Source: Oscillibacter hominis (GTDB lineage Bacteria; Bacillota; Clostridia; Oscillospirales; Oscillospiraceae). Taken from it: a stretch of DNA of 64,000 nt. The stretch lies in the NCBI RefSeq assembly GCF_014334055.1, contig NZ_CP060490.1, forward strand, positions 1,612,001-1,676,000, given 5' to 3'. Shown one piece after another: positions 26,110 through 41,601 of the stretch. The translations under genes and the position numbers were made by a program. The notes beneath the pieces are model-generated. The model was given only the letters and a program-made list of their open reading frames with translations. It had not been told where the DNA came from and ran no database searches. Position 1 is the first letter of the stretch. Each line of letters begins with the position of its first letter.

Positions 26110-26170
26110 AAAACTATTAAGCACTGCGAACTACTTCCAACGGCCCATCTTATTTGCGAGGTGACATGCG

Positions 26171-26524: not shown

Positions 26525-26527
26525 TGG

Positions 26528-26563
26528 AAAAAGCCTGCGGGAAAATCCCGCAGGCTTTTTTTC
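26528..26563 (+). terminator. Terminator of the c-di-AMP receptor gene
   Basis: AAAAGCCTGCGGGA and TCCCGCAGGCTTTT form a long perfect stem with an AAA loop, ending in a T-run. It starts 4 bases after the stop codon. Confidence 0.94.
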
Positions 26564-26657
26564 TTAGATAGAACCGGCATCCCATACGCCCCAATGCCTC
26601 TATCATTTGTTAGCAATACTGTCCAATTTATCTGACTATTTTTATGCAATTTAACCA

Positions 26658-26685
26658 TTGCAAACCATGGTCAAATGACTATGAT
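26658..26685 (+). promoter_or_regulatory. Candidate promoter of the antiporter gene
   Basis: TTGCAA (26658-26663), 16-base spacer and TATGAT (26680-26685). Confidence 0.5.
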
Positions 26686-26743
26686 AGGAGAGGTTTGTAG
26701 ATTGGAAGGCGCTTCACGTCTCCCTACGGAAAGGGGTTTTGAT

Positions 26744-28036: not shown

Positions 28037-28088
28037 TCAGGCTCACTTTGTGGCATCATAGAGTATCCATCAGAAGGGAGTGCTGCAA

Positions 28089-28127
28089 TTGCACCGCATT
28101 TTATTTGTCTGCCACGGCAGAATATGA
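28089..28127 (+). pseudogene. Severed 5' end of the LMW phosphotyrosine phosphatase gene (left junction)
   Basis: Behind AGAAGGGAG, a TTG start opens the frame LHRILFVCHGRI and then meets TGA. ILFVCHG is the start of the P-loop of the phosphatase whose complete gene now begins at 38142. The host frame is interrupted after the GGC codon by the element. The stub therefore encodes only 12 codons and marks the original promoter and leader of the phosphatase. Confidence 0.8.
28098..28119 (+). other. attL of the integrative element
   Basis: Left copy of the direct repeat at the junction. The perfectly shared core is TGCCACGGCA (28110-28119). Including the upstream codons for I-L-F-V-C-H-G, left and right copies differ only at third codon positions (ATT/ATC, TTT/TTC, GTC/GTT). 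Confidence 0.8.
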
Positions 28128-28180
28128 ACATAATCCCTCAAAGCCTTGGTATTACTTGAAAAAATCCCTTGATACATACG

Positions 28181-28201
28181 GATTTACACATGATTTACAC
28201 A
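28181..28201 (+). repeat. Left arm-type integrase repeats
   Basis: Two copies of GATTTACACA at 28181 and 28192, 11 bases apart. The same pair occurs at the right end (38007 and 38018) in the same orientation and spacing, as expected for arm sites bound by the N-terminal domain of a Tn916-type integrase. Confidence 0.7.
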
Positions 28202-28235
28202 CTTTGCGCTTGATATGGGTATATATTCAGAAAAG

Positions 28236-28267
28236 ACCGCCTTGCTTGGAAAGCACGGCGGTTCTTT
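28236..28267. terminator. Terminator downstream of the beta-helix/SLH gene
   Basis: ACCGCCTTGCTT and AAGCACGGCGGT form a 12-bp stem with one mismatch and a 3-base loop. T-rich tracts follow on both strands (TTCTTTTT on plus, TCTTTTC on minus). Confidence 0.75.
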
Positions 28268-28275
28268 TTCATATG

Positions 28276-29973
28276 TTACTGTTTGCAGCGTTCAAAGATT
28301 GAATTAACCAGTTCAACAACTTCACCGCGCGTTACGATGCGGTCAGGCTGGACGGATGCAGCGTCTTGAATCCAGCCATAGGCAGCAGCGGTTACAATGT
28401 TCTTGTAAGCCCAATGTGCGGCATAGGGAACGTCAGGCATGGGTGCAGTTTTAGCGTCCACAAAGCGTGTCAGGATGGCGATAAGCTGTCCGTAGGTTAA
28501 GTTATCATTTGGACGGAAGAAGCCGTTACAGCCATTCAGAACGCCTACAGACGCGAATACAGAAACAGCATCGCGATACCATGAATCGTTGGGAACGTCC
28601 GTAAAAACGCTTGTACTGCCCGCCAAAGCAGCCTTGCTGTCATCAGTCAGAGAACGATAGAGCAGCACGGCAAACTGCGCTCTTGTGATAGGGTCATTTT
28701 CATGTAACTGTCCATCGCCATAGCCTGCAAGCACAAAAGGTTTGTCAGAGTCAAGTTCTGCGTTACCAGCGCATAGTTTTACCGTTTCATCCTTTTGCGG
28801 GGTCATGCTTGGCGTGGAATGATGGTGCCCAGAATGAGAGGGGCGCGTAGGCGCTGGCGCTGTTTCTTCGGGAAGTTCCGGTTGTTCGGGTTCTTTGGGG
28901 AGGTCAGATGCAAAGACAAACTTTGCGCCAAAATCAGGGCTGTCGATTTCACAGTCAATGACTTCACCGATGAAAACGGCGTTTGTGCTTGCGTCAAAGC
29001 GATTTCCCATATAGTCTTTATAGAATCCGATGGGCTGATTTTCGGTATAGATGCTATCCATACTTTCGGTGTAACTCATGCTGAATGGTATTCTTGTTGC
29101 AACGCGCACATCATCAGCGCCGTTTTTGCCAATGTTCCCATAGATGGCGGTATCAATAATATTGGTGTCTCCATCAATGGCAACACCACCGCCTAAAGTT
29201 GCAACATTCTCTGTAATGGTGCAGGAGGTTATATTGGCAGTCCCCGTTACCTGAAGCCCACCACCAACATATGCGTCTGTTGTTTCATATGCTGCTTGGT
29301 TTTTGCTGATAGTGCAATCTGTAATTTTAAGTGTGCCTTGACAGGTGATTGCGCCGCCGCAACCAGTTGATTTGTTATTACAAAATGCTGATTTGCACAT
29401 ATTGATAGACGATGCTCTACTTATCCATATTGCGCCCGCACGATTTCCTTGGTTATTTTCAAAATGACAATTTTCAATTTGGGCGGCAGTTGCAAATAGT
29501 GATATGGGAACCCAGTTTGACGAAACGTTTTTAACGGTGACATTCAGCAGCGAGAGGTTCGTTTTTATTTCACCTGTATTATACTTATTTACATCAATGG
29601 CGGCACTACACGGATAATTCATGCCGTCCAGAATGATGTTTTGAAATACAATGCTGTTGACGTTATCTCCATAAATGCTGAAATATGTATTTATAGTTTC
29701 GTCCAACGGTACGACTGTGATTTGCTTTTCGGTATCGCCAACTATGCAGTTTTCGATGATGTTTATTCCGCTACTGAGAGCGATGGTATCTCCATCCTTG
29801 GCGGCAGCAATCGCGGCTTGCAATTCCTCCAAAGATGAAACGACTACGGGCGTTTCAGATTGAGAATCATCGGGAGATTCTTCATCTTCTGTTGCAAGCG
29901 CAGTTGTTGAGAACAGGGAAAAGAGCAGTAAACAGGAAAGCAGCGCGGAGAGCAAGCGGTTTCTTCTTTTCAT
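28276..29973 (-). CDS. Secreted parallel beta-helix protein with C-terminal SLH domains
   Basis: 565 residues. A signal peptide (residues 1-27, ending TTALAT) is followed by an acidic stretch, then about 250 residues of right-handed beta-helix repeats (recurrent N/C-rich turns such as VTVKNVSS, ITDCTISKNQAAY, ITSCTITENVATLGGGV). A Pro/His-rich linker (about 375-400) leads to three SLH units (RAQFAVLLYRSL; FTDVPNDSWYRDAVSVFA; HWAYKNIVTAAAYGWIQD). SLH domains bind pyruvylated secondary wall polymer, so it is a wall-displayed protein, perhaps for glycan or host-surface contact. It is cargo on the element, 18 bases downstream of an XRE repressor gene that may control it. Confidence 0.85.
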   Translation of the reverse strand: MKRRNRLLSALLSCLLLFSLFSTTALATEDEESPDDSQSETPVVVSSLEELQAAIAAAKDGDTIALSSGINIIENCIVGDTEKQITVVPLDETINTYFSIYGDNVNSIVFQNIILDGMNYPCSAAIDVNKYNTGEIKTNLSLLNVTVKNVSSNWVPISLFATAAQIENCHFENNQGNRAGAIWISRASSINMCKSAFCNNKSTGCGGAITCQGTLKITDCTISKNQAAYETTDAYVGGGLQVTGTANITSCTITENVATLGGGVAIDGDTNIIDTAIYGNIGKNGADDVRVATRIPFSMSYTESMDSIYTENQPIGFYKDYMGNRFDASTNAVFIGEVIDCEIDSPDFGAKFVFASDLPKEPEQPELPEETAPAPTRPSHSGHHHSTPSMTPQKDETVKLCAGNAELDSDKPFVLAGYGDGQLHENDPITRAQFAVLLYRSLTDDSKAALAGSTSVFTDVPNDSWYRDAVSVFASVGVLNGCNGFFRPNDNLTYGQLIAILTRFVDAKTAPMPDVPYAAHWAYKNIVTAAAYGWIQDAASVQPDRIVTRGEVVELVNSIFERCKQ

Positions 29974-29991
29974 GGGTGCAGCGACCTTTCT

Positions 29992-30279
29992 TTATTTTTT
30001 GGAGCGCAGCAAGCCGACCATGTTTACAATCGCCGCAATTTCCTGTTCATTTAACCCCGAAACGTCCACAAAGGAGCGGCGATTTCCGCATAACAGGTAG
30101 TCCGTTGTAACGCCGTAGAGCCGAGCCAGTGCAATAATGATTTCCGGACTTGGCTGACGCATTTCATTCTCATAGAGCGAGACAACCGAGCGGGTCACGC
30201 CGATAGCGGCAGCAACCTCCGTTTGGGTCAATCCCCGTTGATTCCGTAATTGTTTCAGCCGAGCGGCAAAACAGGTCAT
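29992..30279 (-). CDS. XRE family HTH repressor 1
   Basis: 95 residues. A HTH_3 motif covers residues 5-60 (LKQLRNQRGLTQTEVAAAIGVTRSVVSLYENEMRQPSPEII), followed by GVTTDYLL and a short C-terminal tail. The ATG at 30279 follows AGGAGG at 12 bases; upstream frame extensions lack a start with a site. It is a paralogue of the neighbouring XRE protein (shared GVTTDYLL and a DVS-L tail). Its upstream DNA has TACCGCAAACGG, similar to the operator of the second gene. It probably acts as a repressor of itself and possibly of the SLH gene just downstream. Confidence 0.85.
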   Translation of the reverse strand: MTCFAARLKQLRNQRGLTQTEVAAAIGVTRSVVSLYENEMRQPSPEIIIALARLYGVTTDYLLCGNRRSFVDVSGLNEQEIAAIVNMVGLLRSKK

Positions 30280-30303
30280 AACAAGTACAATCCTCCTAAA
30301 TTC

Positions 30304-30315
30304 TACCGCAAACGG
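30304..30315 (-). promoter_or_regulatory. Candidate XRE operator 1
   Basis: TACCGCAAACGG lies 25 bases upstream of the first XRE gene and shares TACCGCAAA with the inverted repeat upstream of the second XRE gene. Confidence 0.4.
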
Positions 30316-30350
30316 CGTTACTCTTGGTGTCGCGTTATGCTGCAAATTGC

Positions 30351-30380
30351 AACAAAAAAGGACGGGCAGAAACCCGTCCA
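30351..30380 (-). terminator. Distal terminator-like hairpin after the second XRE gene
   Basis: GGACGGG (30360-30366) pairs with CCCGTCC (30373-30379), followed on the minus strand by TTTTTTG. It lies 85 bases after the stop codon. Confidence 0.75.
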
Positions 30381-30429
30381 GCGCCGCTTGGTACTCTATC
30401 CGATTACGGAAAATGAATACAAAAATGAA

Positions 30430-30466
30430 ACCACCGCAGCGGGTGAATCGCCCAGCCTACGGTGGT
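30430..30466 (-). terminator. Proximal hairpin after the second XRE gene
   Basis: ACCACCG and CGGTGGT flank an inner GGG/CCC pairing. The hairpin starts at the stop codon and is followed on the minus strand by TTTCATTTTTG. It works in tandem with the hairpin at 30351-30380. Confidence 0.65.
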
Positions 30467-30765
30467 TATTCTTTTCCGACTTTCTTAAACTCCGTTATGA
30501 TGCGATGCAGCGTATCAATCTGACTGTCGGACAGTTCGGAAACATCAATCGTCTTTCCTCCGGTCACGCCGAGCAGATAGTCCGTTGTAACACCGAAGTA
30601 TGCGGCAATCCGAATCAGAACGTCGAATGTTGGATAGCCAAGACCATTTTCGTATTTGCTGACAACCGCTTTGGAAAGACCGACCTTTGCGCCAAGTTCC
30701 TGTTGCGTGAGGTCACGGGCAGTTCGGAGCTTTTTAAGATTTTCTCCAAATTCAGAGTAATACAT
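30466..30765 (-). CDS. XRE family HTH repressor 2
   Basis: 99 residues. A HTH_3 domain (LKKLRTARDLTQQELGAKVGLSKAVVSKYENGLGYPTFDVL) is followed by GVTTDYLLGVTGG and a tail starting IDVSELSDSQID. ATG 30765 starts MYYSEFGENLKKLR, the usual N-terminus of the family; the frame extension upstream to 30828 is unlikely. It is divergent from the SLOG operon, with a perfect TACCG/CGGTA inverted repeat in the gap, so it is the likely repressor of both sides. Confidence 0.85.
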   Translation of the reverse strand: MYYSEFGENLKKLRTARDLTQQELGAKVGLSKAVVSKYENGLGYPTFDVLIRIAAYFGVTTDYLLGVTGGKTIDVSELSDSQIDTLHRIITEFKKVGKE

Positions 30766-30789
30766 AGCATCACCGCCTTGCGGATAGTT

Positions 30790-30805
30790 TACCGCAAAAA
30801 CGGTA
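30790..30805. promoter_or_regulatory. Candidate XRE operator 2
   Basis: TACCG-CAAAAA-CGGTA is a perfect 5-bp inverted repeat with a 6-base spacer, 24 bases upstream of the second XRE gene and 30 bases upstream of the -35 of the SLOG operon promoter. Confidence 0.55.
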
Positions 30806-30835
30806 TATAAATCATAGACTACAATCAACGATATA

Positions 30836-30864
30836 TTGATTTAAGAAAAGAAGTGTAGTAAAAT
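30836..30864 (+). promoter_or_regulatory. Promoter of the SLOG operon
   Basis: TTGATT (30836-30841), a 17-base spacer and TAAAAT (30859-30864), 43 bases before the GTG start of the SLOG gene. Confidence 0.7.
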
Positions 30865-30906
30865 GGCGGTAAGCATGAGACTTTTGAACGTTAGGGGTGC
30901 TGCGTT

Positions 30907-31353
30907 GTGCGAGTTTGTACCTTTTGCGGTCACAGTAAAATATATTCCCCGTATGAGGATATAAAGGTAGCAACGCGGCAAATTGTGTCGGGCTTGATTC
31001 AAGATGGCTACGATTATTTTCTTGTTGGAAACTACGGACAGTTTGACAGGTTAGCAGCGTCAGTGTGCTTGACACTAAAGCGGGGATATCCGTCTATCGG
31101 GGTCAACCTCGTTGTGCCTTACTATCAGCCGCAACTGGACAGCTACGAAAAAGAATACCGCGCACGGTTCGATGATGTTATTGTCCCAGCTTTGGAAAGT
31201 ACGCCCTATCAGTACCGTATTGTCCGTGCAAATGAGTATATGGTAGACCGCGCTGATACTATCATCGCATATGTAAATACGTCCACAGGCGGGGCAGCAA
31301 AGACGCTCGCCTATGCGGAGCGGAAGAAGAAACGGATTATACGGATAAAATAG
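30907..31353 (+). CDS. SLOG (Rossmann-like nucleotide-sensing) family protein
   Basis: 148 residues with a GTG start behind AGGGGTG. It begins RVCTFCGHSKIY, has DYFLVGNYGQFDRLAA after the first helix, and ends DTIIAYVNTSTGGAAKTLAYAERKKKRI, the glycine-rich nucleotide-contact pattern of the SLOG/YpsA-like group. SLOG proteins bind nucleotide derivatives and appear both as metabolic enzymes (LOG) and as sensors in defence or conflict systems. It is the first gene of a three-gene operon with two unrecognised partners on a mobile element. Function is unknown. Confidence 0.7.
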   Translation: MRVCTFCGHSKIYSPYEDIKVATRQIVSGLIQDGYDYFLVGNYGQFDRLAASVCLTLKRGYPSIGVNLVVPYYQPQLDSYEKEYRARFDDVIVPALESTPYQYRIVRANEYMVDRADTIIAYVNTSTGGAAKTLAYAERKKKRIIRIK

Positions 31354-31367
31354 AAAGGGTAGGTTTT

Positions 31368-31727
31368 ATGGACGAGCTGTTTGAATCCTTTGACGCTTGG
31401 ATTGAAGATGTCGGACAGGAGATATTGGACGAAGAAAATAAACCGATGCTACTTAACCCCGCAAGACTAACGCAGATGCAATTTGTGTATGCAGTATTGA
31501 AAAAATACGCGCTTGCCAACGATGCGATAGTGACGTACAAGCTGAATGAACCGTTTACAAGTATGGGTAGCGTTACGATTGAGGGCGAGGATTTTATCTT
31601 GAACAGTCCAAAGTGGTTTGCAAGAGCAGCAGAAATGGCAAGTAACGTAGAGATTTACACCTTAGAGAATGAAAATATCCGTATCACATTTACTTTCCAT
31701 GAATATGCGAAGCCGATAGAATCATAG
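31368..31727 (+). CDS. Hypothetical acidic protein, second gene of the SLOG operon
   Basis: 119 residues, acidic, no membrane segment and no family recognised. The N-terminal 40 residues are helical (LFESFDAWIEDVGQEILDEE); the rest looks mixed alpha/beta (VTIEGEDFILNS, NVEIYTLENENIRITFTFHE). The site GAAAGGGTAGG precedes the ATG. It starts 14 bases after the SLOG stop codon, so it is translated from the same message and probably works with it. Confidence 0.65.
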   Translation: MDELFESFDAWIEDVGQEILDEENKPMLLNPARLTQMQFVYAVLKKYALANDAIVTYKLNEPFTSMGSVTIEGEDFILNSPKWFARAAEMASNVEIYTLENENIRITFTFHEYAKPIES

Positions 31728-31743
31728 GCTTTGGAGTGAGATT

Positions 31744-32331
31744 ATGGAACTTGTAATTGCTGTAATACTTGTAATTATCCTATTTGTTAAAATTAACTCA
31801 GATAAAGAAGCAAAAAGGAGCGCTTGCGAAAGATTCGATGAAAAACAGCGGAAAATATCTGAATGGAAAGCAAGAGTAACAGACAGGAATCTTGAACGGC
31901 AGCTTAAAGCCTTTATTCAGAATCCAGAAAATAAAGAGACTGTTTCTATGACGGTTTCGCCTGTGTATGACAGCATTTGGCGAGATAAGGATTTTTCTGA
32001 TTTGTTTCCTAAAGACCGTTGGTGCAGGCGCAAAGATGATTGGACATTGGAGTATCACGAACAGGTTCAGCGTGAATTATGCAAAATGAATACAGAAAAT
32101 GCACTCAGGATTATGATGGCAAAGCGCGGTAAGATTTTGGATTACGACGCAGATAGAAGTTCATCATATAGCCAGAATGTAATGGCGAGCGGCATTTCTG
32201 CGGATTCCCCACTAACGGCGTATGTCCTTATTTGGTGCGCAAAAGAGTTGGAAAAGCAAGGCATAGGCAATCGGTTTGTTGTTCCGTCAATCGGAAAATA
32301 TGGTGCGGGAGGCTTGCATTGGGAACTATGA
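31744..32331 (+). CDS. Hypothetical membrane-anchored protein, third gene of the SLOG operon
   Basis: 195 residues. One N-terminal hydrophobic helix (ELVIAVILVIILFVKI) is followed by a basic, helical body of about 175 residues ending AGGLHWEL. No catalytic motif was recognised. It sits 16 bases behind the second gene and before a terminator, completing the operon. With a single membrane helix and a long soluble region it could be a membrane effector or receptor for the SLOG protein, which is inference. Confidence 0.65.
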   Translation: MELVIAVILVIILFVKINSDKEAKRSACERFDEKQRKISEWKARVTDRNLERQLKAFIQNPENKETVSMTVSPVYDSIWRDKDFSDLFPKDRWCRRKDDWTLEYHEQVQRELCKMNTENALRIMMAKRGKILDYDADRSSSYSQNVMASGISADSPLTAYVLIWCAKELEKQGIGNRFVVPSIGKYGAGGLHWEL

Positions 32332-32414
32332 TATAGGCAAGGAGTGGTGTCCTTGTTTATATACGGGGGCATTGGTGTTCGCCCCCCACAATTCCTTTCT
32401 GCTATCTGGCAGAG

Positions 32415-32446
32415 AAAACGGGCAGGATTTTTCCTGCCCGTTTTTC
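32415..32446. terminator. Bidirectional terminator between the SLOG operon and the short recombinase
   Basis: AAAACGGGCAGGA and TCCTGCCCGTTTT form a long perfect stem with a TTTT-rich loop, flanked by A and T runs, serving both converging units. Confidence 0.92.
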
Positions 32447-33011
32447 ATACGTCCAGACACAAGTGATTTTCTATGGCTTGCTCTAATTCCCTTTGCTGGA
32501 TTCCGATATATGCTTGTGTGACTGCGGCGCTGCTATGTTGTAGCAGCTTTTGAACAAGAACGATATTGTAGCCGTTCTTTGTGTAGATTTCTGTTGCGTA
32601 GAACTTTCGGAATGAATGTGTGCTGATTCCGGTATAGCCGAGGTAGTCACAGACGATTTGCAGATGCTTTTGGATTTGCCGTGTAGTGAGCGGGAATATC
32701 TGTGCGTCTGCGGAAATGTTGTTGTCCATGCAGTAAAGCCGTATAAACTGGTACAAGGCAAGCGGAACGGTAAATACGCGGGCTTTACCTGTTTTCTGTT
32801 CAATGATAGAGAGCCGATAGCGTTCACCATCTTTTACGATATCAGAGAGCCGCAGTCGGACGATATCAGAAATACGCAAGCCTAAGTTTGCTTCAAGCAT
32901 GAGCGCCGCAGCGATGCGCTCATTTGGTCGGCAACCGGAAAAGCCTTGCTTCATGGTTTGAATGATTTCTTTGTATTGTTCTGCGCTCAGTGCGATTGTT
33001 CTTTTGTTCAT
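32445..33011 (-). CDS. Short tyrosine recombinase (FimB/FimE-sized)
   Basis: 188 residues consisting of the catalytic domain alone. The catalytic set is visible: Arg in GLRISDIVRLR, Lys in EQKTGKARVF, HxxR in STHSFRKFY, His in LLQHSSAAVTQ and Tyr in QAYIGIQQ. There is no N-terminal core-binding domain, so it has the size of invertase-type recombinases such as FimB/FimE rather than of integrases. It is the second tyrosine recombinase of the element and lies near a surface protein gene. Whether it inverts a switch, resolves dimers or is a remnant is open. Confidence 0.85.
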   Translation of the reverse strand: MNKRTIALSAEQYKEIIQTMKQGFSGCRPNERIAAALMLEANLGLRISDIVRLRLSDIVKDGERYRLSIIEQKTGKARVFTVPLALYQFIRLYCMDNNISADAQIFPLTTRQIQKHLQIVCDYLGYTGISTHSFRKFYATEIYTKNGYNIVLVQKLLQHSSAAVTQAYIGIQQRELEQAIENHLCLDV

Positions 33012-33046
33012 GTAAGTACCCCCCTAAAACGAAGTCTTGAAGAAGA

Positions 33047-33112
33047 AAAAACGAACTTTTTCGCTTACCAACAGAAAACGCTTGAAAATGCTTGACTTTG
33101 CGGTTCGTTTTT
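33047..33112. repeat. Inverted repeat upstream of the short recombinase
   Basis: AAAAACGAAC (33047-33056) and GTTCGTTTTT (33103-33112) are perfect 10-bp inverted arms around 46 bases, which contain two GCTTGA direct repeats. It lies 36 bases upstream of the recombinase start. It could be a recombinase target, an operator or an mRNA leader fold. Confidence 0.55.
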
Positions 33113-33134
33113 CTGATGTTATAGGAACAGTGTG

Positions 33135-33159
33135 GGAAAAGCGGGGATTTCTCCCCGCT
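33135..33159 (-). terminator. Terminator after the small hydrophobic peptide gene
   Basis: AGCGGGGA (33140-33147) pairs with TCCCCGCT (33152-33159) around a 4-base loop, followed on the minus strand by TTTTCCC. It lies 7 bases after the peptide stop codon. Confidence 0.75.
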
Positions 33160-33166
33160 CCCAAAC

Positions 33167-33268
33167 TCAGAGATTGAACAGCCCAAACGCAAGCAGAAGC
33201 AGCAGTGCAAGCAGCGGACAGGCACAGGCAAGAACGGCGATAAGAATACAGGCGATAGCTTTTCCCAT
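33167..33268 (-). CDS. 33-residue hydrophobic membrane peptide
   Basis: A small ORF reading MGKAIACILIAVLACACPLL and then LALLLLLAFGLFNL-type sequence. It is a single predicted membrane helix with an N-terminal lysine and two cysteines near the middle. AAAGGAAACC lies 9 bases before the ATG, and a terminator follows. It begins 28 bases after the ardC stop, so it is probably the last gene of the ardC operon. Similar tiny hydrophobic peptides are common on conjugative elements, but its role is unknown. Confidence 0.55.
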   Translation of the reverse strand: MGKAIACILIAVLACACPLLALLLLLAFGLFNL

Positions 33269-33296
33269 GATATGGTTTCCTTTCTATGTACGATAT

Positions 33297-34136
33297 TTAG
33301 CCCAAAATATAATCAACAGCTTTTGCGGCTGCACCGCTGGCGGCAACGACCATCCGTTTATCATTTTTCAAGACAGTTAGCCAGCTTTGAATATAAGCGG
33401 CATTATTGCGGAATGTTCCTTTGGTTTCAATTCCCGCATAGTTGAGAAGCGCGGCAGCGCCGATTTCAGCGGTCAATTCTTCCTTGCTGTACTCTGCGTT
33501 TCCAAAGTGTGCGGTTGCTTTTAGGCGGTTTAGACGTGTGCGGTGTCCGGTGCTGTGTGTGATTTCGTGAAAAGCGGTAGAATAGAACTCGCCCATACTC
33601 CGAAACTGCTCAACGAGCGGCAGAACGATACAGTCTCTTGATGGGCTGTAATAGGCTTCATCGCCCAACTGATGGTGGATTATGATATGCTCCCGTTGGC
33701 TGTAGTGGTCGATGATTTCATCGGCGGCGGGTATTGGCGTCGGTTCTGCGGGCTGATTGAATCGCGGGGTTAGACCGTCGCATTGGTCGATATGGAACAC
33801 GTTATAGTAACGCAGCATAGGAATCAGACGGTCAACGGGCGATTGCGTTTCATCGTCCTGCATATCGGACACTTTGACCTGTTTCCAAAACACAACGATT
33901 TGTGATTTCTCGCCCTTGCGGACAGCGCCGCCGCGTGACAATACTTGACTGTAGGTGTAGTATTCGCCGGGTTTGCCTAACAGCATTTGATTCAACAGAC
34001 TGTACGGTTTTCCGGTTGTTCCGCTGATAGCGCCGTGCTGTGTACCTGTCCAAGGCTTTTGCCAAGGAATAACGCCTTGCTGTAGCTGTTGGATGATTCT
34101 TTCGGTTACGGCTTCGTAAATATCAAACTTTGCCAT
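33297..34136 (-). CDS. ArdC-type antirestriction protein
   Basis: 279 residues. The N-terminal DUF1738/ArdC-N region (FDIYEAVTERIIQQLQQGVIPWQKPWTG, SLLNQMLLGKPGEYYTYSQ) binds single-stranded DNA in known ArdC. The C-terminal zincin-like MPTase domain has HExxH in FYSTAFHEITHSTGH with a following NAEYSKEELTAEIG. ArdC proteins protect entering DNA from host restriction during transfer, supporting a conjugal past for the element. AGGAGCG precedes the ATG. The hydrophobic peptide gene lies downstream. Confidence 0.9.
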   Translation of the reverse strand: MAKFDIYEAVTERIIQQLQQGVIPWQKPWTGTQHGAISGTTGKPYSLLNQMLLGKPGEYYTYSQVLSRGGAVRKGEKSQIVVFWKQVKVSDMQDDETQSPVDRLIPMLRYYNVFHIDQCDGLTPRFNQPAEPTPIPAADEIIDHYSQREHIIIHHQLGDEAYYSPSRDCIVLPLVEQFRSMGEFYSTAFHEITHSTGHRTRLNRLKATAHFGNAEYSKEELTAEIGAAALLNYAGIETKGTFRNNAAYIQSWLTVLKNDKRMVVAASGAAAKAVDYILG

Positions 34137-34221
34137 TATAAACGCTCCTGTTCTTCTTGATTTGGAGCGGGGCGGCGTGTTATAATCACACTACCACCCC
34201 GCAAGGGTTGGTGTTAGGCTG

Positions 34222-34255
34222 CTTGTCCGCTTGCTTTGGTCGGCGTTCGGACAAG
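34222..34255 (-). repeat. Inverted repeat after the Gp157-like gene
   Basis: CTTGTCCG and CGGACAAG are separated by 18 bases. It lies between the 92-residue protein gene and ardC. No T-run follows on the minus strand, so a terminator is not established. Confidence 0.4.
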
Positions 34256-34265
34256 TGGTCTTTCT

Positions 34266-34544
34266 TTATGCGCTGACGGAAAAGCGGCGGCTTTGGCTCT
34301 GTCGCGTAAATGCAGCGTAAACATCGGGCATAGCCTTTTTGAACTCGCTGCTATTGAAGCGTGAAGTCAATACAGAGCGCCAACGGACGATAAAACGTCC
34401 TGCGGTCAATTCCTCGGTATCACGCGCCAGCATTTCCGCTTTGATGGTGTCGCGGATAGCTTCGGCTTCTGCGGCTGCGTCCTGTGCAAGCTGCTCCCAC
34501 TCCTGCATTTTGACAATACGGGTTTCCAATTCTGTTACTGACAT
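34266..34544 (-). CDS. Small coiled protein, Gp157-like pattern
   Basis: 92 residues, helical N-terminus (VTELETRIVKMQEWEQLAQDAAAEAEAIRDTIK) followed by TAGRFIVRWRSVLTSRFNSSEF and SRRFSVSA. Proteins of this kind occur on conjugative elements and phages with a Gp157-like arrangement; no function was recognised. ATG 34544 follows GGAAGATACAAA. It is divergent from the ribbon-helix-helix gene, with three palindromic operators in the 304-base gap, so it may be repressed by that protein. Confidence 0.6.
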   Translation of the reverse strand: MSVTELETRIVKMQEWEQLAQDAAAEAEAIRDTIKAEMLARDTEELTAGRFIVRWRSVLTSRFNSSEFKKAMPDVYAAFTRQSQSRRFSVSA

Positions 34545-34728
34545 TTTGTATCTTCCTTTCATTCTTTTAGGGCTTTGGACAGGCAGCAGGTGGCATTAAA
34601 CATCTATGCCCGTTGGCAATCTCAATCTCTCTTATCCATTTCTGCTTTTGTCTTGCGTTCTTGGTTTCGGCTTGCGCTTACTTTCGTCCGCCTTGACCTG
34701 CCCGGTGTTCCCTTGTGTGATTACAATA

Positions 34729-34812
34729 TATCAGTTAACTGATAATTTGTAAAGATGGCAGAGTGCATAAAAGTTAACTGACATTCTTGTGCAATATATC
34801 AGTTTACTGATA
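34729..34812. promoter_or_regulatory. Three palindromic operators in the 34545-34848 gap
   Basis: The 304-base gene-free gap holds TATCAGTTAACTGATA (34729-34744, perfect 16-bp palindrome), AGTTAACTGACA (core AGTTAACT at 34772-34779) and TATCAGTTTACTGATA (34797-34812). Core spacings are 39 and 29 bases. The third site covers the -35 of the promoter of the ribbon-helix-helix gene. The left part of the gap (34545-34720) shows nothing recognisable. Confidence 0.75.
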
Positions 34813-34831
34813 TTTCTATAATAGGTATAAT
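34803..34831 (+). promoter_or_regulatory. Promoter of the ribbon-helix-helix gene
   Basis: TTTACT (34803-34808), a 17-base spacer and a perfect TATAAT (34826-34831). The -35 lies inside the third palindromic operator, so binding there would block the promoter. Confidence 0.65.
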
Positions 34832-34848
34832 GAAACGGGGGTGATACT

Positions 34849-35085
34849 ATGTCAACAGAAGCGCAGAAGCGGGCAAGCACGAATTATAATCGTAAGCAGG
34901 ATAATATAATGGTGCGCCCGACGAAAGAAGAAGGTGCGGCAATACGCGCCGCCGCTGCAAGTGTCGGACAGTCTGTGCAGGCGTATATCCTGCAAGCAAT
35001 CAGAGAACGCATGGAGCGGGAACAGGCACAGGCGGGGGGCGGTTTTGGTATTTCTGCCGCCTGTCCAGAAGAAAAACATATGTAG
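34849..35085 (+). CDS. Ribbon-helix-helix (Arc-like) DNA-binding protein
   Basis: 78 residues. The segment NIMVRPTKEEGAAIRAAAAS followed by VGQSVQAYILQAIRERME matches the beta strand plus two helices of the Arc/MetJ fold, as in plasmid mobilisation and antitoxin proteins. GGGGGTGAT precedes the ATG. It follows the three palindromes, so autorepression is likely. No relaxase or toxin gene is adjacent; a former role as a relaxase accessory protein is possible. A Gly-rich tail ends the protein. Confidence 0.75.
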   Translation: MSTEAQKRASTNYNRKQDNIMVRPTKEEGAAIRAAAASVGQSVQAYILQAIRERMEREQAQAGGGFGISAACPEEKHM

Positions 35086-35210
35086 TCGGTCAGTGTAACT
35101 GAGAGAAAAATTTTTCATTCTGTCTATATACTCACCTTGATTCACACAATTCCGTATGGTACGATATATCCAGAATTAAAAATCACGCCAACGTCAGTAA
35201 GACAAAAGTA

Positions 35211-35270
35211 AGCCGTGACTTGCCAAGTGGGGAAACTCCCACACGGGCAAGCACGGCTTTTTCTTTTTGG
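35211..35270 (+). terminator. Terminator after the ribbon-helix-helix gene
   Basis: A long hairpin: AGCCGTG and CACGGCT outer arms, CTTGCC and GGGCAAG middle arms, and TGGG/CCCA inner arms, followed by TTTTTCTTTTT. Confidence 0.85.
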
Positions 35271-35331
35271 ATGCACCTTGACAACAGAATATGGTTCTCT
35301 GCAAGAGCAAAAAAAGATTGGGGGTGAGGAA

Positions 35332-35559
35332 ATGTCAGAACTCTTGAAGCGGCTTCAGACCGGACAGCGGCATATCGCAGAATACACCCGTCCAAATGCG
35401 GATTTTATATGCCCTGTCTGCAAACAGGAATCGCCTTGTTATGCGTCTTTCGTGACGCTGCAAGCTGGCTATGGCAGCGTCCATGATGGCGAAAGGGCAA
35501 AGGTCAGAATATGCGGAGAGTGCATAGACCGACTGTTTGAAAAATTAGAAACAAAATAA
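35332..35559 (+). CDS. Small zinc-finger-like protein
   Basis: 75 residues with two Cys pairs, CPVCKQESPC and CGEC, spaced about 36 residues apart as in a zinc ribbon. GGGGGTGAGGAA precedes the ATG at 35332. The frame stays open upstream through the terminator, but that part is not a gene. It is followed 16 bases later by the DUF6291-like protein. No function can be assigned. Confidence 0.6.
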   Translation: MSELLKRLQTGQRHIAEYTRPNADFICPVCKQESPCYASFVTLQAGYGSVHDGERAKVRICGECIDRLFEKLETK

Positions 35560-35575
35560 GGAAGTGAACAATTCA

Positions 35576-36214
35576 TTGGAAAATACAAGAAATGATGTAG
35601 AACGGAAAAAAGCTTTTGATGCGACTGTGTGTTTCTCGTTCTTTGGAACATGGCTGGAAGCAATCGAAGCATACGAAACGGAAGCAGATACAAGCAGCAA
35701 TGCCTATAAGTTGTTTAAGGCGATTGCATACTACTCGATGTATGGAGTAGAACCAGAATTTGAAAATTCGGGCTTAGATGCGATGTGGAAAATTCTTTCC
35801 AGAGAGATTGACAATAGCGTAAGCCGCCGCAAATGTCGCTTTGGCAAAGAAGAAGTAACCGAGCGGGAACAAGCGGTTATTGACGCTTGGAAAGTATCTC
35901 CCCATGCTTCTGTGCGTGAAGTATCAATGACAACTGGCATTCATAGGAGCAGTGTTGAGCGAATCAAGCGAAAATACTGGAGACAATTAGAAGAATTGCG
36001 GCGGACTGCTATTGCTGCTGGTGATAGTGAATGTGTTTCTTTTAATAGTCAAGATGGTGCTATTGATTGTTCTCATGGTAATAGTATTACCGAGACGAGA
36101 CAGCGAGACACAGCGGAGGAACTAATCTTTGACGAGGATGAAGCAGATATGCGAGAATGGCAAGAAGAGCATCCAAATGAGCATAGAATAAGAGATGACG
36201 AATTACCATTTTGA
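35576..36214 (+). CDS. DUF6291-like protein with C-terminal HTH, phage/element type
   Basis: 212 residues. The N-terminal part (AFDATVCFSFFGTWLEAIEAYET, YKLFKAIAYYSMYGVEPEFENS, IDNSVSRR) matches the arrangement of DUF6291-type element proteins. A HTH-like stretch SVREVSMTTGIHRSSVERIK follows, then an acidic tail (FDEDEADMREWQEE). TTG 35576 is preferred because AAGGAAG lies 9 bases upstream; GTG 35564 has it too close. It probably acts in element DNA metabolism or regulation, not proven. Confidence 0.55.
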   Translation: MENTRNDVERKKAFDATVCFSFFGTWLEAIEAYETEADTSSNAYKLFKAIAYYSMYGVEPEFENSGLDAMWKILSREIDNSVSRRKCRFGKEEVTEREQAVIDAWKVSPHASVREVSMTTGIHRSSVERIKRKYWRQLEELRRTAIAAGDSECVSFNSQDGAIDCSHGNSITETRQRDTAEELIFDEDEADMREWQEEHPNEHRIRDDELPF

Positions 36215-36534
36215 AAATGGCGTTTATGTGTTTTGGATGCCAACAAAAATATATGCACAGAGCGTGTCAACATTTTCTTTTTGGATGCTCTGCTCATTGT
36301 GGCACAAGGGATTGCAGGCGTAAAAAAACAAGATTTTATCCAGAAAAGACCTGATAGTTAAGGCGTTTTTGGCAATTTTGAAATCAAATGTGAAAATACC
36401 ACCGATTATCGGTGCATAGACGCTGCGCCAAAGGTCAGCGCAATAAATAAAAGTTACCTTGAATTATCAACCACCTTGTGTGGTCATATCCTCGCCAAAG
36501 GCAGGAGGGCAACAGTGCATAACAGGAGGTTTTA
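36215..36534 (+). other. Gene-free 320-base gap before xis
   Basis: AT-rich. It contains a short dyad ACCGATTATCGGT (36402-36414) and GCTG/CAGC arms near 36423-36438, and the xis ribosome site AACAGGAGG just before 36535. No ORF with a convincing start, no promoter close to consensus and no RNA gene was recognised. By position it could hold the regulatory region for xis-int. Confidence 0.4.
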
Positions 36535-36732
36535 ATGAACAGCACTGTTCCCATTTGGGAAAAAGCAAATTTGACGCTTGAAGAAGCAGCGGCATATTTC
36601 AACATAGGAGTAAACAAAATACGGGAAATCAGCAATGATGATAATTGCACATTCGTCCTCTGGGTTGGGAATAAGCGGCTAATCAAACGGAAGATGTTTG
36701 ATGCCTACTTGGAAAAAGCCTATTCCATTTGA
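36535..36732 (+). CDS. xis: Excisionase (Tn916 Xis family)
   Basis: 65 residues with the pattern PIWEKANLTLEEAAAYFNIG then VNKIREISND, CTFVLWVGNKRLIKRKMFDAYL, typical of the Tn916/Tn1549 excisionase family, a winged-helix protein that bends DNA at the arm sites and directs Int towards excision. AACAGGAGG precedes the ATG. It ends 82 bases before the integrase start, the usual order. Confidence 0.88.
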   Translation: MNSTVPIWEKANLTLEEAAAYFNIGVNKIREISNDDNCTFVLWVGNKRLIKRKMFDAYLEKAYSI

Positions 36733-36814
36733 AAAATGAACTGTGCAAGAGCATTTGATATGTGCTATAATCGCTATACCATATCAAGTGCTTTTCGTTG
36801 AAAAGGAGGAACGA

Positions 36815-37972
36815 ATGTCCGAAAAGCGCAAAGATAAAAAGGGGCGCATTTTGAGAACAGGCGAAAGCCAGCGCCCTAATCTTACATACCAATTCCGTTA
36901 TAAAGACATCCGAGGAAAGACGCACTATGTGTACGCTCCGACCTTGGAGGAGCTACGGGAAAAAGAAATAGCTATCCAGAAAGACATAACAGATGGTATC
37001 GATTACTGTGCAGGGGAAACTACCGTGCTTGAACTGATAGAACGATACATCAGTCAAAAGCAAGGCGTACGTTATAATACAAAGGTTGGATATAATTTTG
37101 TTTTCAACCTTGTCAAACGAGAGGACTTTGGCTATCGAAAGATAAAAACCGTCAAGCCCTCTGATGCAAAGCAGTGGTTCATTAAATTGCACGATGATGG
37201 ATACAGCTACAGTACGCTAACTTCGGTTAGAGGTGTATTGAAACCGGCGTTTGAAATGGCTGTCGAGGATGATGTTGTGCGGCGCAATCCGTTCTTGTTC
37301 CGAGTTGTTGATGTGATTCAAAATGACACCGTTCCGAGAAAAGCACTCACAAAGGACGAACAGAGCAAACTACTTGAATATGTGCAGAGCGATAAGTGCC
37401 GCAGGCGTTATTATGATGAAATTGTAATCCTGCTTGGAACGGGTATGCGTATCAGTGAACTATATGGATTGACAAAGTCCGATGTTGATTTCCAAAAAGG
37501 CGTTGTCCGTATTGAACGACAATTAACACGTACACGGAACTGCGAATATTACATTGAAAACCCAAAGACGGAGAGCGGTTTTAGGCAGATACCTATGAGC
37601 GCAGAAGTACAGCGGGCGTTTCATAATGTAATCCGCAGCAGAAAGTCACCCAAAGTGGAAGTCATTGTCGGCGGACACACAGGTTTTCTCTTTTTGGACA
37701 AGGACGGAAAGCCCAAAGTGGCGGGACATATGGAACACGCAATGAAGCGGATAGTGGACAATTACAACAAAAGTCATACGGATAAACTTGTTGTAACGCC
37801 TCATGTGCTTCGACATACTTTTTGTACTGAAATGGCACAGGCAGGTATGCCGGTCAAAGAGTTGCAGTACCTGATGGGACATGCCGACGCAAACACGACG
37901 ATGAACACCTACACCCACATGAGTTTTGAAGCGGCAAAACAGGCGTTTGATAGAATCGCCGTGAATCATTAA
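36815..37972 (+). CDS. int: Tn916-type tyrosine integrase
   Basis: 385 residues. The N-terminal arm-binding domain (RILRTGESQRPNLTYQFRYKD, YVYAPTLEELREKE) is followed by a SAM-like core-binding domain (about 75-165) and a catalytic domain: Arg in GTGMRISELYG, Lys in NPKTESGFRQ, HxxR in TPHVLRHTFC, His in LMGHADANTTM and Tyr in NTYTHMSF. The ATG at 36815 follows AAAGGAGG. It lies at the right end next to the attachment site and is the enzyme that integrates this element into the phosphatase gene. Confidence 0.95.
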   Translation: MSEKRKDKKGRILRTGESQRPNLTYQFRYKDIRGKTHYVYAPTLEELREKEIAIQKDITDGIDYCAGETTVLELIERYISQKQGVRYNTKVGYNFVFNLVKREDFGYRKIKTVKPSDAKQWFIKLHDDGYSYSTLTSVRGVLKPAFEMAVEDDVVRRNPFLFRVVDVIQNDTVPRKALTKDEQSKLLEYVQSDKCRRRYYDEIVILLGTGMRISELYGLTKSDVDFQKGVVRIERQLTRTRNCEYYIENPKTESGFRQIPMSAEVQRAFHNVIRSRKSPKVEVIVGGHTGFLFLDKDGKPKVAGHMEHAMKRIVDNYNKSHTDKLVVTPHVLRHTFCTEMAQAGMPVKELQYLMGHADANTTMNTYTHMSFEAAKQAFDRIAVNH

Positions 37973-38006
37973 ACTTGACACGTTTTCTGGATAGACCATA
38001 CACATT

Positions 38007-38027
38007 GATTTACACACTATTTACACA
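38007..38027 (+). repeat. Right arm-type integrase repeats
   Basis: GATTTACACA at 38007 and TATTTACACA at 38018, 11 bases apart, matching the left-end pair in sequence, orientation and spacing. They lie 35 bases after the int stop and about 136 bases from the crossover core. Confidence 0.7.
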
Positions 38028-38141
38028 TTTTGCCCGTTTAGGTACGGAGACTTCTAAAGATTTACAAAGAAGCGGGCAAAAAAGAATGAGAATAACGCCT
38101 GAAAATACAAGCGTTTGAAGGCTTACAGAGGGTTACGGAGA

Positions 38142-38585
38142 ATGACAAAAATCTTATTCGTTTGCCACGGCAACATCTGCCGATCCCCTATGGCGGAATG
38201 TCTGCTGAAGGATATGGTCCGGGACCGCTCCGGCGACTTTGCCATCTCCTCCGCCGCCACCAGCACCGAGGAGATCGGCAACCCCATCCACCCCGGCACC
38301 CGTCAAAAGCTGAAAGAGATGGGCGTGCCGCTCTGCGATCACCGGGCCGTACAGCTCACAGTCCAAGACTATCGGCTCTATGACTGGATCTTAGGCATGG
38401 ACTCCGCCAACATCCGCAATATCCTCCGCATCACCGGCGGAGACCCCAAGGGAAAGGTCCGGAGGCTGCTGGACTTTTCACAGCGGCCACGGGACATTGC
38501 CGACCCCTGGTACACGGGAAATTTTGACGTCACTTATGAAGACATCGAGGAGGGCTGCATCGCCCTCCTGCGGGCCTTACAGTAG
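38142..38585 (+). CDS. Low-molecular-weight phosphotyrosine protein phosphatase
   Basis: 147 residues. The catalytic P-loop CHGNICRS lies at about residues 8-15, and the general acid Asp in IADPWYTGNF near residue 119. The ATG and first 10 codons lie in the right end of the integrated element; the coding sequence continues into host DNA at TGCCACGGCA (38163-38172). The ATG is preceded by GAGGG and by an adjacent GGAGA. The original start is stranded at 28089. Such enzymes dephosphorylate protein tyrosines or arginines and often act on bacterial tyrosine kinases or wall-linked targets. Confidence 0.9.
   Translation: MTKILFVCHGNICRSPMAECLLKDMVRDRSGDFAISSAATSTEEIGNPIHPGTRQKLKEMGVPLCDHRAVQLTVQDYRLYDWILGMDSANIRNILRITGGDPKGKVRRLLDFSQRPRDIADPWYTGNFDVTYEDIEEGCIALLRALQ
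38151..38172 (+). other. attR of the integrative element
   Basis: Right copy of the junction repeat, core TGCCACGGCA (38163-38172), inside codons 8-11 of the restored phosphatase. Compared with attL, the codons for I-L-F-V-C-H-G differ only at three third positions. Confidence 0.8.
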
Positions 38586-38594
38586 CCATGCAAC

Positions 38595-38634
38595 AAAGAG
38601 GAGGCGCAAATCGCGCCTCCTCTTGTCATTTTCT
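38595..38634. terminator. Terminator between the phosphatase and the GGDEF-EAL gene
   Basis: AGAGGAGGCGC (38597-38607) and GCGCCTCCTCT (38613-38623) form an 11-bp perfect stem. The T-rich tail on the plus strand (TGTCATTTTC) serves the phosphatase; the A-rich left flank gives TTTG on the minus strand for the converging gene. Confidence 0.85.
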
Positions 38635-41601
38635 CTCCTGTCCGCTGTGGGATCGCAGCAACTCTAACGCCGCCTGCGAAATCTGAGGCGGCACTGCCGC
38701 CGGGCGGGCCAGGTAATAGCCCTGGAGCAGGTCCACATCCAGGTCCAGCACCTTCTCCACCTCCGCCGCAGTCTCCAGCCCCTCCGCAATGATGTACATT
38801 TCCCGCTCATGGGCATAGGCCACGATGTTGGCCACAATCTGCTGCTTGTTCCGGTCTGAGTCAATGTCCCGGATGATGGAGATGTCGACCTTGATGAACT
38901 GGGGCGTCAGCTCCAGCAGGTTCTTTTCGCTGTTGTAGCCGCTTCCGTAATCATCCAGGGCAAACATGCCGGAAATCCCCAACATCTTCCGCTTTTCCTG
39001 AGTGGACTCCTGATCCAGATGCTCCGACTCGGTGATCTCCACCACCACCCTGGGCTGGAGCAGCATGAATTTCTTCTTGTACGCCTCCCAATCCTTCTGG
39101 CTCATGCACTGGTTGGCAATGGAGTTTAGGAACAGCAGCGAGTCATTGGTCACCAGGCGGTTCTCCTGCAGCTTACTGAATGCTTCGGATGCCTTATACC
39201 AGGTCATACGCTCAATCTCAGAGAGCTTCCCCTCCTCCCTGGCGATCCGGAGCACCGCCTCAGGGGAGCGCAGCGTGGGCAGATCCACCCGCATCAGCGC
39301 CTCGTAGGCCACTGCCCTGCCCGTCTTGGCACTGACAATGGGCTGGAAGAAATAGGCGACCAGCTCCTGCTCCAGGAACTGATGGAACTCCCGCTTGTTT
39401 TGTAGCAGGAACTCCTCCCTGCTGTATACACCCAAGTCGAAATCCGCCAGTTCCCCCTTGCGGGACTGCTTGACCTGATACATGGCAAAGTCGGCAAATT
39501 TGGTCAGCTCGTTCATGTTGGTGCTGTCTTCAGGATACCACGCCACGCCGCCGGACGCGCTGATGTGGAGCACCTCGCCGCTGGGAAGCGTCAAAGTGGT
39601 GCTGCAGATCGCCTCACGCAGGCGATGGATCGCCTCACGGATCTCCTCACGGCTCTCATATCCGTGGTACAGAAGGAAGAACTCGTCCCCGGACACCCTG
39701 GCACAGAGCGTGCCGGCCGGGGCGTTGGCGGCGAAGCACTGGCCGGCCCTGCGGATATACTGATCCCCCCAGTCGTGCCCGAAGCGGTCGTTGGTGGTCT
39801 TCAGATTATCCAGGTCCAGCATGATCATGGCGGCGTGTTTCAGGGTTTCCGGATGCGCAAACAACTCCGTCGCCGTGCGCAGGAAGGCCGGCCGGTTATA
39901 AAGCCCGGTCAGCAGGTCGTAATCCCGCTCGTGCTCGATGCGCAGCCGCTCCAGGGTGCTGGCCGTGACATCCTCCACCAGCCCTACGTGCCGTTCCCCC
40001 TCCTGGGTCATCTCATAACGCAGGTAGCGCACCCCGCCCCGGGGCACGGGGATGCAGTAGAGTTCGCTCCCATCCGGCGAAGTATGATGCTCCAGCGTCT
40101 GATTCCGCTCCTTCATCAGCTCCAAAAACCGCTGGGCGGTCAACTCCGGCACCTGTATCCCATCCAGTCCCATCAGCGGGAAGAAATTGTCCGTTACATA
40201 GACCAGGTCCTGATTTTGGCGCAGCTCAAAACCGCCCATCTCCACGCTGGCCATCTCCATAATCCGCAAGAATTTGGTGGAGGCATCCAACACCTCCCGG
40301 CTCAGGTCTGTGATGGCGCCGGAAAACCGGTCGATCTCTGTGATTCCGGTATGGGAGAGCTGGGGAAGGCCGCCCCGGTCCCGCTGGGCCAGGGCCACTT
40401 CTTCAGAGAGCTTCCGGATGGGGGCGGAGAGCCTCCGGCTCACCAAAACGCTGCCGATAAGGCCGGCCGCCAGGCACAAAAGCACCACCATCGTCAGAAC
40501 TTCCAATACCTGGCCGGAGAAGCTGTAAAGGCGGCCCTCCCGGACAGCGCCGAACAGGACCCAGTGCTGAGCGGCAAAAGGCGTGTTGGTGTTATAGAGG
40601 CCCAGCGGCTGCATGGCCGCAAAGTAGCGTTCCCCCTCCATGTTAAAATAGAGGCCCTCATCACCATCCTGTTCCAAAACAAACTCCTCTCCCGTCCCAT
40701 TTTGGGGAAGGATCGGGCCGGTGCTCAGGACTGTGGTGTACTTGCCCTCCTCCCGCTCCACTGCCAAGAGATAGGAGCCCTGCTTGTCGTCAAAGAGCTC
40801 GGCGGAAGGTAGCAGGGATTTGAGGTAGTCGGTCAGCAGCTCCACGCCCAACACGCCGTATATCGTTCCATCCTCCAATATCAGGGGAACGGAATATGAT
40901 ACCGCCCAGCGGTCGTCCCCGGGAAGGATGTAGGGCTCCGGGTTCCAATACCCATAATCCCGCGCGTCGGAGAGCTCCTGGGCTTGATAGGCCGCCTGAA
41001 ATGGGTCATAGAGAAAGCCGGGATACTCGTCTTCAAAATTGAACAGGGGCTGCCAGGCGTTGTCCGTGGAGATATTCAGCCCCTTCACCACGTCAATGGG
41101 CGCCCGTTCCAGCAGGAGGTCGGCGTTGCGGTAGGACGGCGTGGACGCCGGGTCCAGATCCCGGATATAGAATCCGGTCCGGGGGGATTTTTCCCCCGCA
41201 TCCAGGTCTTGGGTGTTGAACACCACAAAGATGCCAGATACCTTTTTGCTGTAGAGCGTGGAGATCAGCTCATCGCTGATGTTCAGCACCAACTGTGCAC
41301 ACTCATCTGACTTGCTGTCTATCTCATCCAGTGACAGCTCACCCCTGCTCAGCATCTGCTGGGTGGTTTTATTGATGTCGGCGGCAAGCATGGAAAGGTC
41401 CGACCAAGTGCCCACCATGGACCCCTCCAGATATCCCCGCCTGTTTTCCGCCTGTTTACTCAAAATATCCCTGGCGTTCTGGTCCAGCTTCTCCACCATC
41501 CCGCTGGCCCGGATGCCGCCTAACAGCAGGCAGGTCTCCAACAGAAGGATCAGGATGAGTGGAATCAAAATGGTGCGAAAGACCGACCGGCTTTTCTTCA
41601 T
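38626..41601 (-). CDS. Membrane Cache-domain GGDEF/EAL cyclic-di-GMP enzyme
   Basis: 991 residues. TM helix 1 (about 10-30), a large extracytoplasmic dCache-like sensor (about 35-370), TM helix 2 (EVLTMVVLLCLAAGLIG), a HAMP segment (SRRLSAPIRKLSEEV), a PAS-like region, a GGDEF domain with degenerate but often active SGDEF in RVSGDEFFLLY, and an EAL domain with YEALMR, ITESEHL, DDYGSGYNS, KVDISIIRDI and AEGLET. The phosphodiesterase residues look intact, so it may make and/or degrade c-di-GMP. AAGGAGG precedes the ATG. The stop of the upstream binding-protein gene is 34 bases away. Confidence 0.9.
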   Translation of the reverse strand: MKKSRSVFRTILIPLILILLLETCLLLGGIRASGMVEKLDQNARDILSKQAENRRGYLEGSMVGTWSDLSMLAADINKTTQQMLSRGELSLDEIDSKSDECAQLVLNISDELISTLYSKKVSGIFVVFNTQDLDAGEKSPRTGFYIRDLDPASTPSYRNADLLLERAPIDVVKGLNISTDNAWQPLFNFEDEYPGFLYDPFQAAYQAQELSDARDYGYWNPEPYILPGDDRWAVSYSVPLILEDGTIYGVLGVELLTDYLKSLLPSAELFDDKQGSYLLAVEREEGKYTTVLSTGPILPQNGTGEEFVLEQDGDEGLYFNMEGERYFAAMQPLGLYNTNTPFAAQHWVLFGAVREGRLYSFSGQVLEVLTMVVLLCLAAGLIGSVLVSRRLSAPIRKLSEEVALAQRDRGGLPQLSHTGITEIDRFSGAITDLSREVLDASTKFLRIMEMASVEMGGFELRQNQDLVYVTDNFFPLMGLDGIQVPELTAQRFLELMKERNQTLEHHTSPDGSELYCIPVPRGGVRYLRYEMTQEGERHVGLVEDVTASTLERLRIEHERDYDLLTGLYNRPAFLRTATELFAHPETLKHAAMIMLDLDNLKTTNDRFGHDWGDQYIRRAGQCFAANAPAGTLCARVSGDEFFLLYHGYESREEIREAIHRLREAICSTTLTLPSGEVLHISASGGVAWYPEDSTNMNELTKFADFAMYQVKQSRKGELADFDLGVYSREEFLLQNKREFHQFLEQELVAYFFQPIVSAKTGRAVAYEALMRVDLPTLRSPEAVLRIAREEGKLSEIERMTWYKASEAFSKLQENRLVTNDSLLFLNSIANQCMSQKDWEAYKKKFMLLQPRVVVEITESEHLDQESTQEKRKMLGISGMFALDDYGSGYNSEKNLLELTPQFIKVDISIIRDIDSDRNKQQIVANIVAYAHEREMYIIAEGLETAAEVEKVLDLDVDLLQGYYLARPAAVPPQISQAALELLRSHSGQERK

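Follow-up and report, generated by a model that had tools for sequence, protein, structure and literature searches.

The stretch of Oscillibacter hominis DNA analysed here, 64,000 nucleotides long and referred to throughout as the window, carries two starts of one low-molecular-weight phosphotyrosine phosphatase gene, separated by a segment that encodes an integrase and an excisionase. Measured between the two copies of a short shared core, the segment is 10,053 bp long. The features of the locus are as follows, G300 being a closely related genome in which the same site is uninterrupted.

26675..28036, + strand: host flank, Na+/H+ exchanger family gene (PF00999, E 7e-67); collinear in G300
28089..28127, + strand: stub, the phosphatase gene's native 5' end, left stranded, with a stop after CHGRI; 21/21 ILFVCHG bases as in G300
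28110..28119, + strand: attL core TGCCACGGCA, placed by the G300 alignment; in relatives, divergence sets in within the core or just after it
28183..28203, + strand: left arm-type repeats, TTTACACA twice; the right end also has TGATTTACACACT and ATTTACACAT
28230..28269, + strand: hairpin resembling a terminator, with a T run, within the left end; folding energy of 28225-28275 is -20.9 kcal/mol (z -4.4)
28276..29973, - strand: S-layer-homology protein, cargo (PF00395, E 1e-10)
29992..30345, - strand: XRE-type regulator (PF01381, E 1e-19)
30466..30828, - strand: XRE-type regulator (PF01381, E 1e-17)
30907..31353, + strand: SLOG/YpsA-like protein, cargo (PF06908, E 4e-8)
32445..33011, - strand: second, short tyrosine recombinase, catalytic part only, without the N-terminal domain (PF00589, E 5e-18)
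33297..34136, - strand: ArdC-type antirestriction protein (PF08401 and PF18818)
34849..35085, + strand: NikA-like mobilisation protein, below the Pfam cut-off (PF21983, 24.5 bits against a cut-off of 27; NF041264 weak)
36535..36732, + strand: excisionase (PF09035, Tn916-Xis, E 6e-23)
36812..37972, + strand: integrase, Tn916-type tyrosine recombinase (PF02920 arm-binding domain and PF00589)
38009..38029, + strand: right arm-type repeats, TTTACACA twice; words shared with the left end
38127..38162, + strand: element-borne leader end with a ribosome-binding-like AGAGGG, ATG and the codons for MTKILFV; missing from the empty site
38142..38585, + strand: reconstituted low-molecular-weight phosphotyrosine phosphatase, 147 aa (PF01451, E 1e-31)
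38163..38172, + strand: attR core TGCCACGGCA, placed by the G300 alignment and the window sequence
38626..41601, - strand: host flank, GGDEF-EAL protein (PF00563 and PF00990); collinear in G300

Gene content and ends of the element

Like Tn916, the element encodes an integrase that joins a PF02920 arm-binding domain to PF00589, with a Tn916-Xis excisionase adjoining it. Unlike the Tn916 integrative and conjugative element (ICE), it has no recognised conjugation module: the Pfam scan, which covered 14 element proteins and left smaller or overlapping open frames outside, recognised no relaxase, coupling protein or type IV secretion domain among them, so that the element appears, as far as can be seen, to be at most mobilisable. 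Seven element proteins compared with the PADLOC families gave no match.

In the window element, the left arm-type repeats are found about 65-85 bp inward of their core, and the right ones about 135-155 bp ahead of theirs. A word of at least 9 letters is common to the left and right ends in ten of the 14 elements with paired ends (the window element, G002_A, L010, L018, G390, G125, G127, G448, G004 and L113), and an exactly shared word is absent from the other four (G002_B, L003, L011 and G293). In G002_B and L003, the left word TTTACACCA differs from the right word TTACTCCA. The words vary from one element to the next (TTTACACA, TTTACACCA, TTTACTAC, TTTACGCCA) while agreeing between the ends of ten of the 14, as if they were co-evolving with the N-terminal domain of the integrase.

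The terminator-like hairpin inside the left end is not among the matches of a consensus scan for terminators. Folding was applied to 11 left-end stretches picked by eye; those of L108, L109, L011, L123 and L113 were not among them. Hairpins with z of -3.0 to -6.9 occur in the nine correctly placed stretches, and the other two are off position (L002:720-790, z 0.07; L118:690-750, z -1.0). A T run follows the hairpin in the window, in elements A and B and in G448, and is not clear in L010, L018 and L115.

The two phosphatase starts and the empty site

The stub begins with TTG and translates as L-H-R-I-L-F-V-C-H-G-R-I before its stop codon. The right copy begins with the ATG at 38142 and reads M-T-K-I-L-F-V-C-H-G-N-I-C-R-S-P-M. 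Across the seven codons of I-L-F-V-C-H-G (28098-28118 against 38151-38171), 18 of 21 bases are equal and the three differences, all at third positions, are silent; the probability that three random changes in 21 bases of this pair would all be silent is P=0.0065. The initial annotation had pointed to the repeated I-L-F-V-C-H-G stretch, the three silent third-base differences and the identical core, and the coordinates and translations confirm all of these to the base, with TGCCACGGCA as the core. A degenerate pattern for the start segment, which does not take in the TTG and H-R of the left stub, matches the window once (at 38142) and none of 100 shuffles.

A DNA search of 400 genomes for an empty site led to G300, in which the match to the left flank ends at 28119. 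Alignment of the fetched region makes window positions 25738-28119 (89%) and 38151-42952 (88%) contiguous in G300, and the two alignments overlap by 22 bp, exactly at the core. The crossover falls within TGCCACGGCA or at its 5' edge. The phosphatase gene at this locus of G300 is single and uninterrupted and reads LHRILFVCHGNICRSPM. Over ILFVCHG it matches the left stub in 21 of 21 bases and the right copy in only 18, which identifies the left copy as native and the right start as brought in by the element. The start codon is CTG in G300, TTG in the stub and ATG in the copy brought by the element. As proof against chance, this collinear empty site is stronger than the silent-change probability. 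It also bears on the initial annotation, which had looked to close relatives for an empty site with one phosphatase gene, and had held that two copies in a genome free of the element, or no empty site at all, would speak against insertion: what G300 contains is one unbroken gene with the codons of the stub.

A second genome, G431, was rejected as an empty site, the flanking genes of the window not being found beside its phosphatase. Near the locus, a polysaccharide deacetylase gene (window 25220-26038; L174) is interrupted in G300, at window position ~25738-25743, by about 11.7 kb; this DNA carries a serine-recombinase-like gene, judged by eye, and matches in many other genomes end at the same base as this break.

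Related integrases at the same gene start

A search of genome contigs returned 27 loci with related integrases, and in 16 of them a phosphatase match follows the integrase match by about 100-235 bp. Of 61 genomes in the genus of G002, 33 carry phosphatase matches, at 41 places in all; 30 of these places were examined as loci, and 11 of the 30 contain sequence of the integrase, in three of the 11 as fragments only. When 65 distinct related integrases were classified by their downstream DNA, 43 were found to be followed by a phosphatase start (41 called by script and two, L008 and L069, by eye), 16 by a groL-type 3' end (15 by script, L057 by eye) and 6 by other or undetermined sequence, a distribution that is no unbiased census because the relatives were gathered by searching with the window integrase. 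The target specificity of Tn916 is low (PMC4701971, in its available part) and its targets are AT-rich; the clade of the window integrase, in contrast, with 43 of the 65 relatives retrieved by that query at one gene start, looks site-specific. Duplication or rearrangement of a gene fragment, in place of site-specific insertion, would also leave two partial copies of one gene start 10 kb apart. It is nevertheless extremely improbable in view of the empty site in G300, the integrase and excisionase domains, the arm repeats that the window element has at its left and right ends and the recurrence of the same junction at 43 of 65 related integrase loci.

The groL-type calls rest on the motif GG-GG-ATG-TAY-stop. 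This 3' end (GGMY and stop) is used by a sub-clade of integrases that includes L014, L016, L017, L021 and L052, among others, and the left copy of L014 is the end of a 541-aa Cpn60 gene. In a tree of 60 of the 66 rows (L021 was left out as short, L131 for an internal stop, and L023, L029, L030 and L143 for less than 39% identity), one well-supported clade unites the groL-type rows with L019 and is placed among phosphatase rows under midpoint rooting. The target label changes three times on this tree, against 15.4 times in shuffles.

Integration leaves the phosphatase readable, as had been proposed: the frame is intact in the window, at 147 aa, and full-length in 37 of the 43 right ends of relatives (the window excluded). 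Exceptions include L008, which has lost the start segment, and L071, which is frameshifted; altered right copies are seen in L007 (LFCCHG) and in the G111 pair, L113 (ILLTCHG). Stacked elements, two in tandem, occur at the phosphatase of G002 (L126 with L002) and G293 (L109), and both of the integrases in L188 are accompanied by a start segment. L020 and L047 show the start segment running into other DNA, which is what a tandem or an excised form would look like. For clade B no left end was found, L105 giving only 14.5 kb upstream of the integrase gene.

The layout of the right end, in which a ribosome-binding-like stretch (AGAGGG at 38127-38132 in the window) is followed by ATG and the start codons, is repeated in 26 right ends chosen from 39 as representatives whose integrases are less than 80% identical in DNA; the stretch before the in-frame start is mostly purine-rich. 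This supply of a start, together with the 37 of 43 full-length genes, speaks against a different reading, in which insertion would switch the phosphatase off and excision would switch it back on, as described for SpyCI in mutL (PMC4701971, available part). Such a switch would be in keeping with the native leader staying with the stub, with a TATAAT-like box seen by eye before several relatives' stubs (no native promoter was identified for the window stub) and with the window right end, where a promoter scan that is itself uninformative gave nothing convincing (1 match against 0.7 expected). No + strand terminator was found between the integrase and phosphatase genes of the window, so that read-through into the phosphatase would be possible, and we regard the switch as quite unlikely.

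A phage relative bears on who owns the start segment. L201, which has terminase and minor-capsid genes, is integrated in a phosphatase gene, and its right end recurs in L198 joined to other DNA. The two are identical over 3,856 nt before the ATG and over 32 nt from the ATG on, and diverge just past the core; L198 in turn equals L190 at 100% over 4,728 bp. As judged from these junctions, this phage offers the most direct sign that the start segment belongs to the element. The joined ends of L190 and L198 could be those of a circle, a phage genome or a tandem copy, and no terminal repeat was found in L190, L198, L201, L191, L196, L202, L200, L028 or L041. A scan of viral contigs for the start segment gave 23 stretches, five of them with a phosphatase behind and others with the integrase in front and a different sequence behind; no joined form of the window element was among the viral contigs.

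Coding of the start segment and comparison with known systems

The recoded start that the initial annotation had suggested looking for at other insertions of the integrase was seen in the same integrase clade when 14 left/right pairs were compared. Their 64 nucleotide differences comprise 49 at third, 14 at first and one at second codon positions. Of 52 codons that differ, 10 change an amino acid, against a mean of 42 in random draws, none of 20,000 being as low; when each clade is represented by a single pair (8 of the 14), the figures are 8 amino acids and 28.5, again with none of 20,000 as low. Three of the ten amino-acid changes come from the G111 pair (L113), which differs at 3 of 7 residues. 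Across the 26 representative right ends, codon position 2 has an entropy of 0.24 bit and codon position 3 one of 1.21; the 24 nt leading up to the start have 1.52, with the minimum among them at the place of a ribosome-binding site. A fixed DNA-binding site would not leave the third positions free in this manner. Between L010 and L018, 45 of 152 aligned leader bases differ, as do 2 of 6 start codons, both silently. This comparison and the codon-position conservation in the 26 right ends support the earlier proposal that the element's copy of the attachment site is kept coding.

The silent differences might instead be no more than the signature of the last host whose gene start was captured, with no coding constraint. 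For such a history speak the right-end leader of element A, which resembles the native phosphatase leader of G422 (84% over 63 bp), and the start codons of clades A and B, which diverge more than their flanks. It sits poorly, however, with the position-2 conservation in the 26 diverged right ends and with the groups in which the start segment is inherited across hosts. In clades C and D and in G448/G420, zero to two codons of the segment have changed, all silently except in L007, the sole case with an amino-acid change, and in the same comparisons 24-55% of the third positions in the host gene beyond the core differ. G429 differs from both G448 and G420 at 5 codons, all silent, its integrase being 0.67 apart at third positions. 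We therefore consider a bare host signature rather unlikely, and favour constraint on the start codons. The phosphatase locus of G422 itself (L081/L136) has no integrase match, and its resemblance to element A points either to capture of a host leader by the element or to an excision scar in G422.

In clades A (L128-L133, L135, L064 and L066) and B (L152-L155), silent sites of the start codons are hypervariable when set against the leader and the integrase. In the clearest pair, G261 and G331, 6 of 6 start codons differ, with distances of 0.07 at integrase third positions, 0.03 in the leader and 0.17 in the phosphatase, so that here the start codons have also changed more than the host gene beyond the core. 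Because these two clades diverge more in the start codons than in integrase and leader, simple inheritance of the segment with the element does not always hold. One conceivable source, to which we give little credence, is repeated exchange of the start segment with host versions, as a cassette between the start codon and the core. If this were true, the attachment site would be rewritten from functional host codons at every passage through a host, the leader and integrase being left as they were, which would explain clade B (6 of 6 codons between G261 and G331, with leaders 97% identical) as well as clade A. The recombination tract would then be longer than the overlap of tyrosine recombinases, which is usually 6-8 bp.

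Very probably, then, a 10,053 bp integrative element has entered the 5' end of the phosphatase gene and supplies it with a replacement start. The insertion, its empty site, the native and element origins of the two copies, the intact frame and the recurrence are all legible at the level of sequence comparison. The Tn916-type integrase would presumably recombine the core TGCCACGGCA, which encodes the Cys-His-Gly of the P-loop. The ribosome-binding-like sequence, ATG and MTKILFV of the element replace the native leader, start and LHRILFV, with the frame running on, and the native leader and start are left stranded at the left end ahead of a stop codon and the terminator-like hairpin. The hairpin may act as insulation, the hybrid gene is probably expressed, and the element may excise. 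Its start codons would be constrained as codons and not as a fixed DNA site, and would therefore drift silently.

Integration at 5' ends is less usual than at 3' ends, as the initial annotation had remarked, yet it is a described strategy. In the available parts of two papers (PMC4482086, PMC8409611), dusA islands and prophages are reported to share an integrase family that targets a conserved gene at its 5' end, flanked by imperfect direct repeats, with the element supplying the gene's 5' end and excision restoring the native gene; expression and excision have been measured there. Our locus is alike in the 5'-end insertion in a conserved gene, with an empty site in a relative (G300), and in the imperfect direct repeats, of which the downstream copy comes from the element and here restores the reading frame. 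It differs from the dusA islands in its target, which is a phosphatase. The words 'silent' and 'synonymous' occur 0 times in the accessible portion of PMC4482086. The SXT ICE in prfC, as cited in the part of PMC8409611 available, likewise has a 5'-end target and supplies a new 5' end; it is a conjugative element in a different gene, likened here by description. Streptococcal ICEs in the 5' ends of ftsK, rbgA and ebfC (PMC4701971, available part) resemble our case as 5'-end insertions in Firmicutes, but are said to leave the N-terminus unchanged, whereas insertion in the window changes it from L-H-R to M-T-K.

The principle is thus known from the dusA islands and from SXT in prfC, and what appears to be new is the phosphatase target and the Tn916-type integrase clade. 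The phosphatase was not found as a target among the matches listed in the open-licence literature, an absence that carries little weight. The locus is a clean example of a mobile element whose attachment site is constrained by coding: which site is empty, which start is native and which came with the element can each be told. To the insertion targets it adds the P-loop of a phosphatase, used by phages and by a small island, mostly in Oscillospiraceae. The groL-type sub-clade could allow a change of integrase target to be studied, and at such loci gene prediction may get the stub or the exchanged N-terminus wrong.
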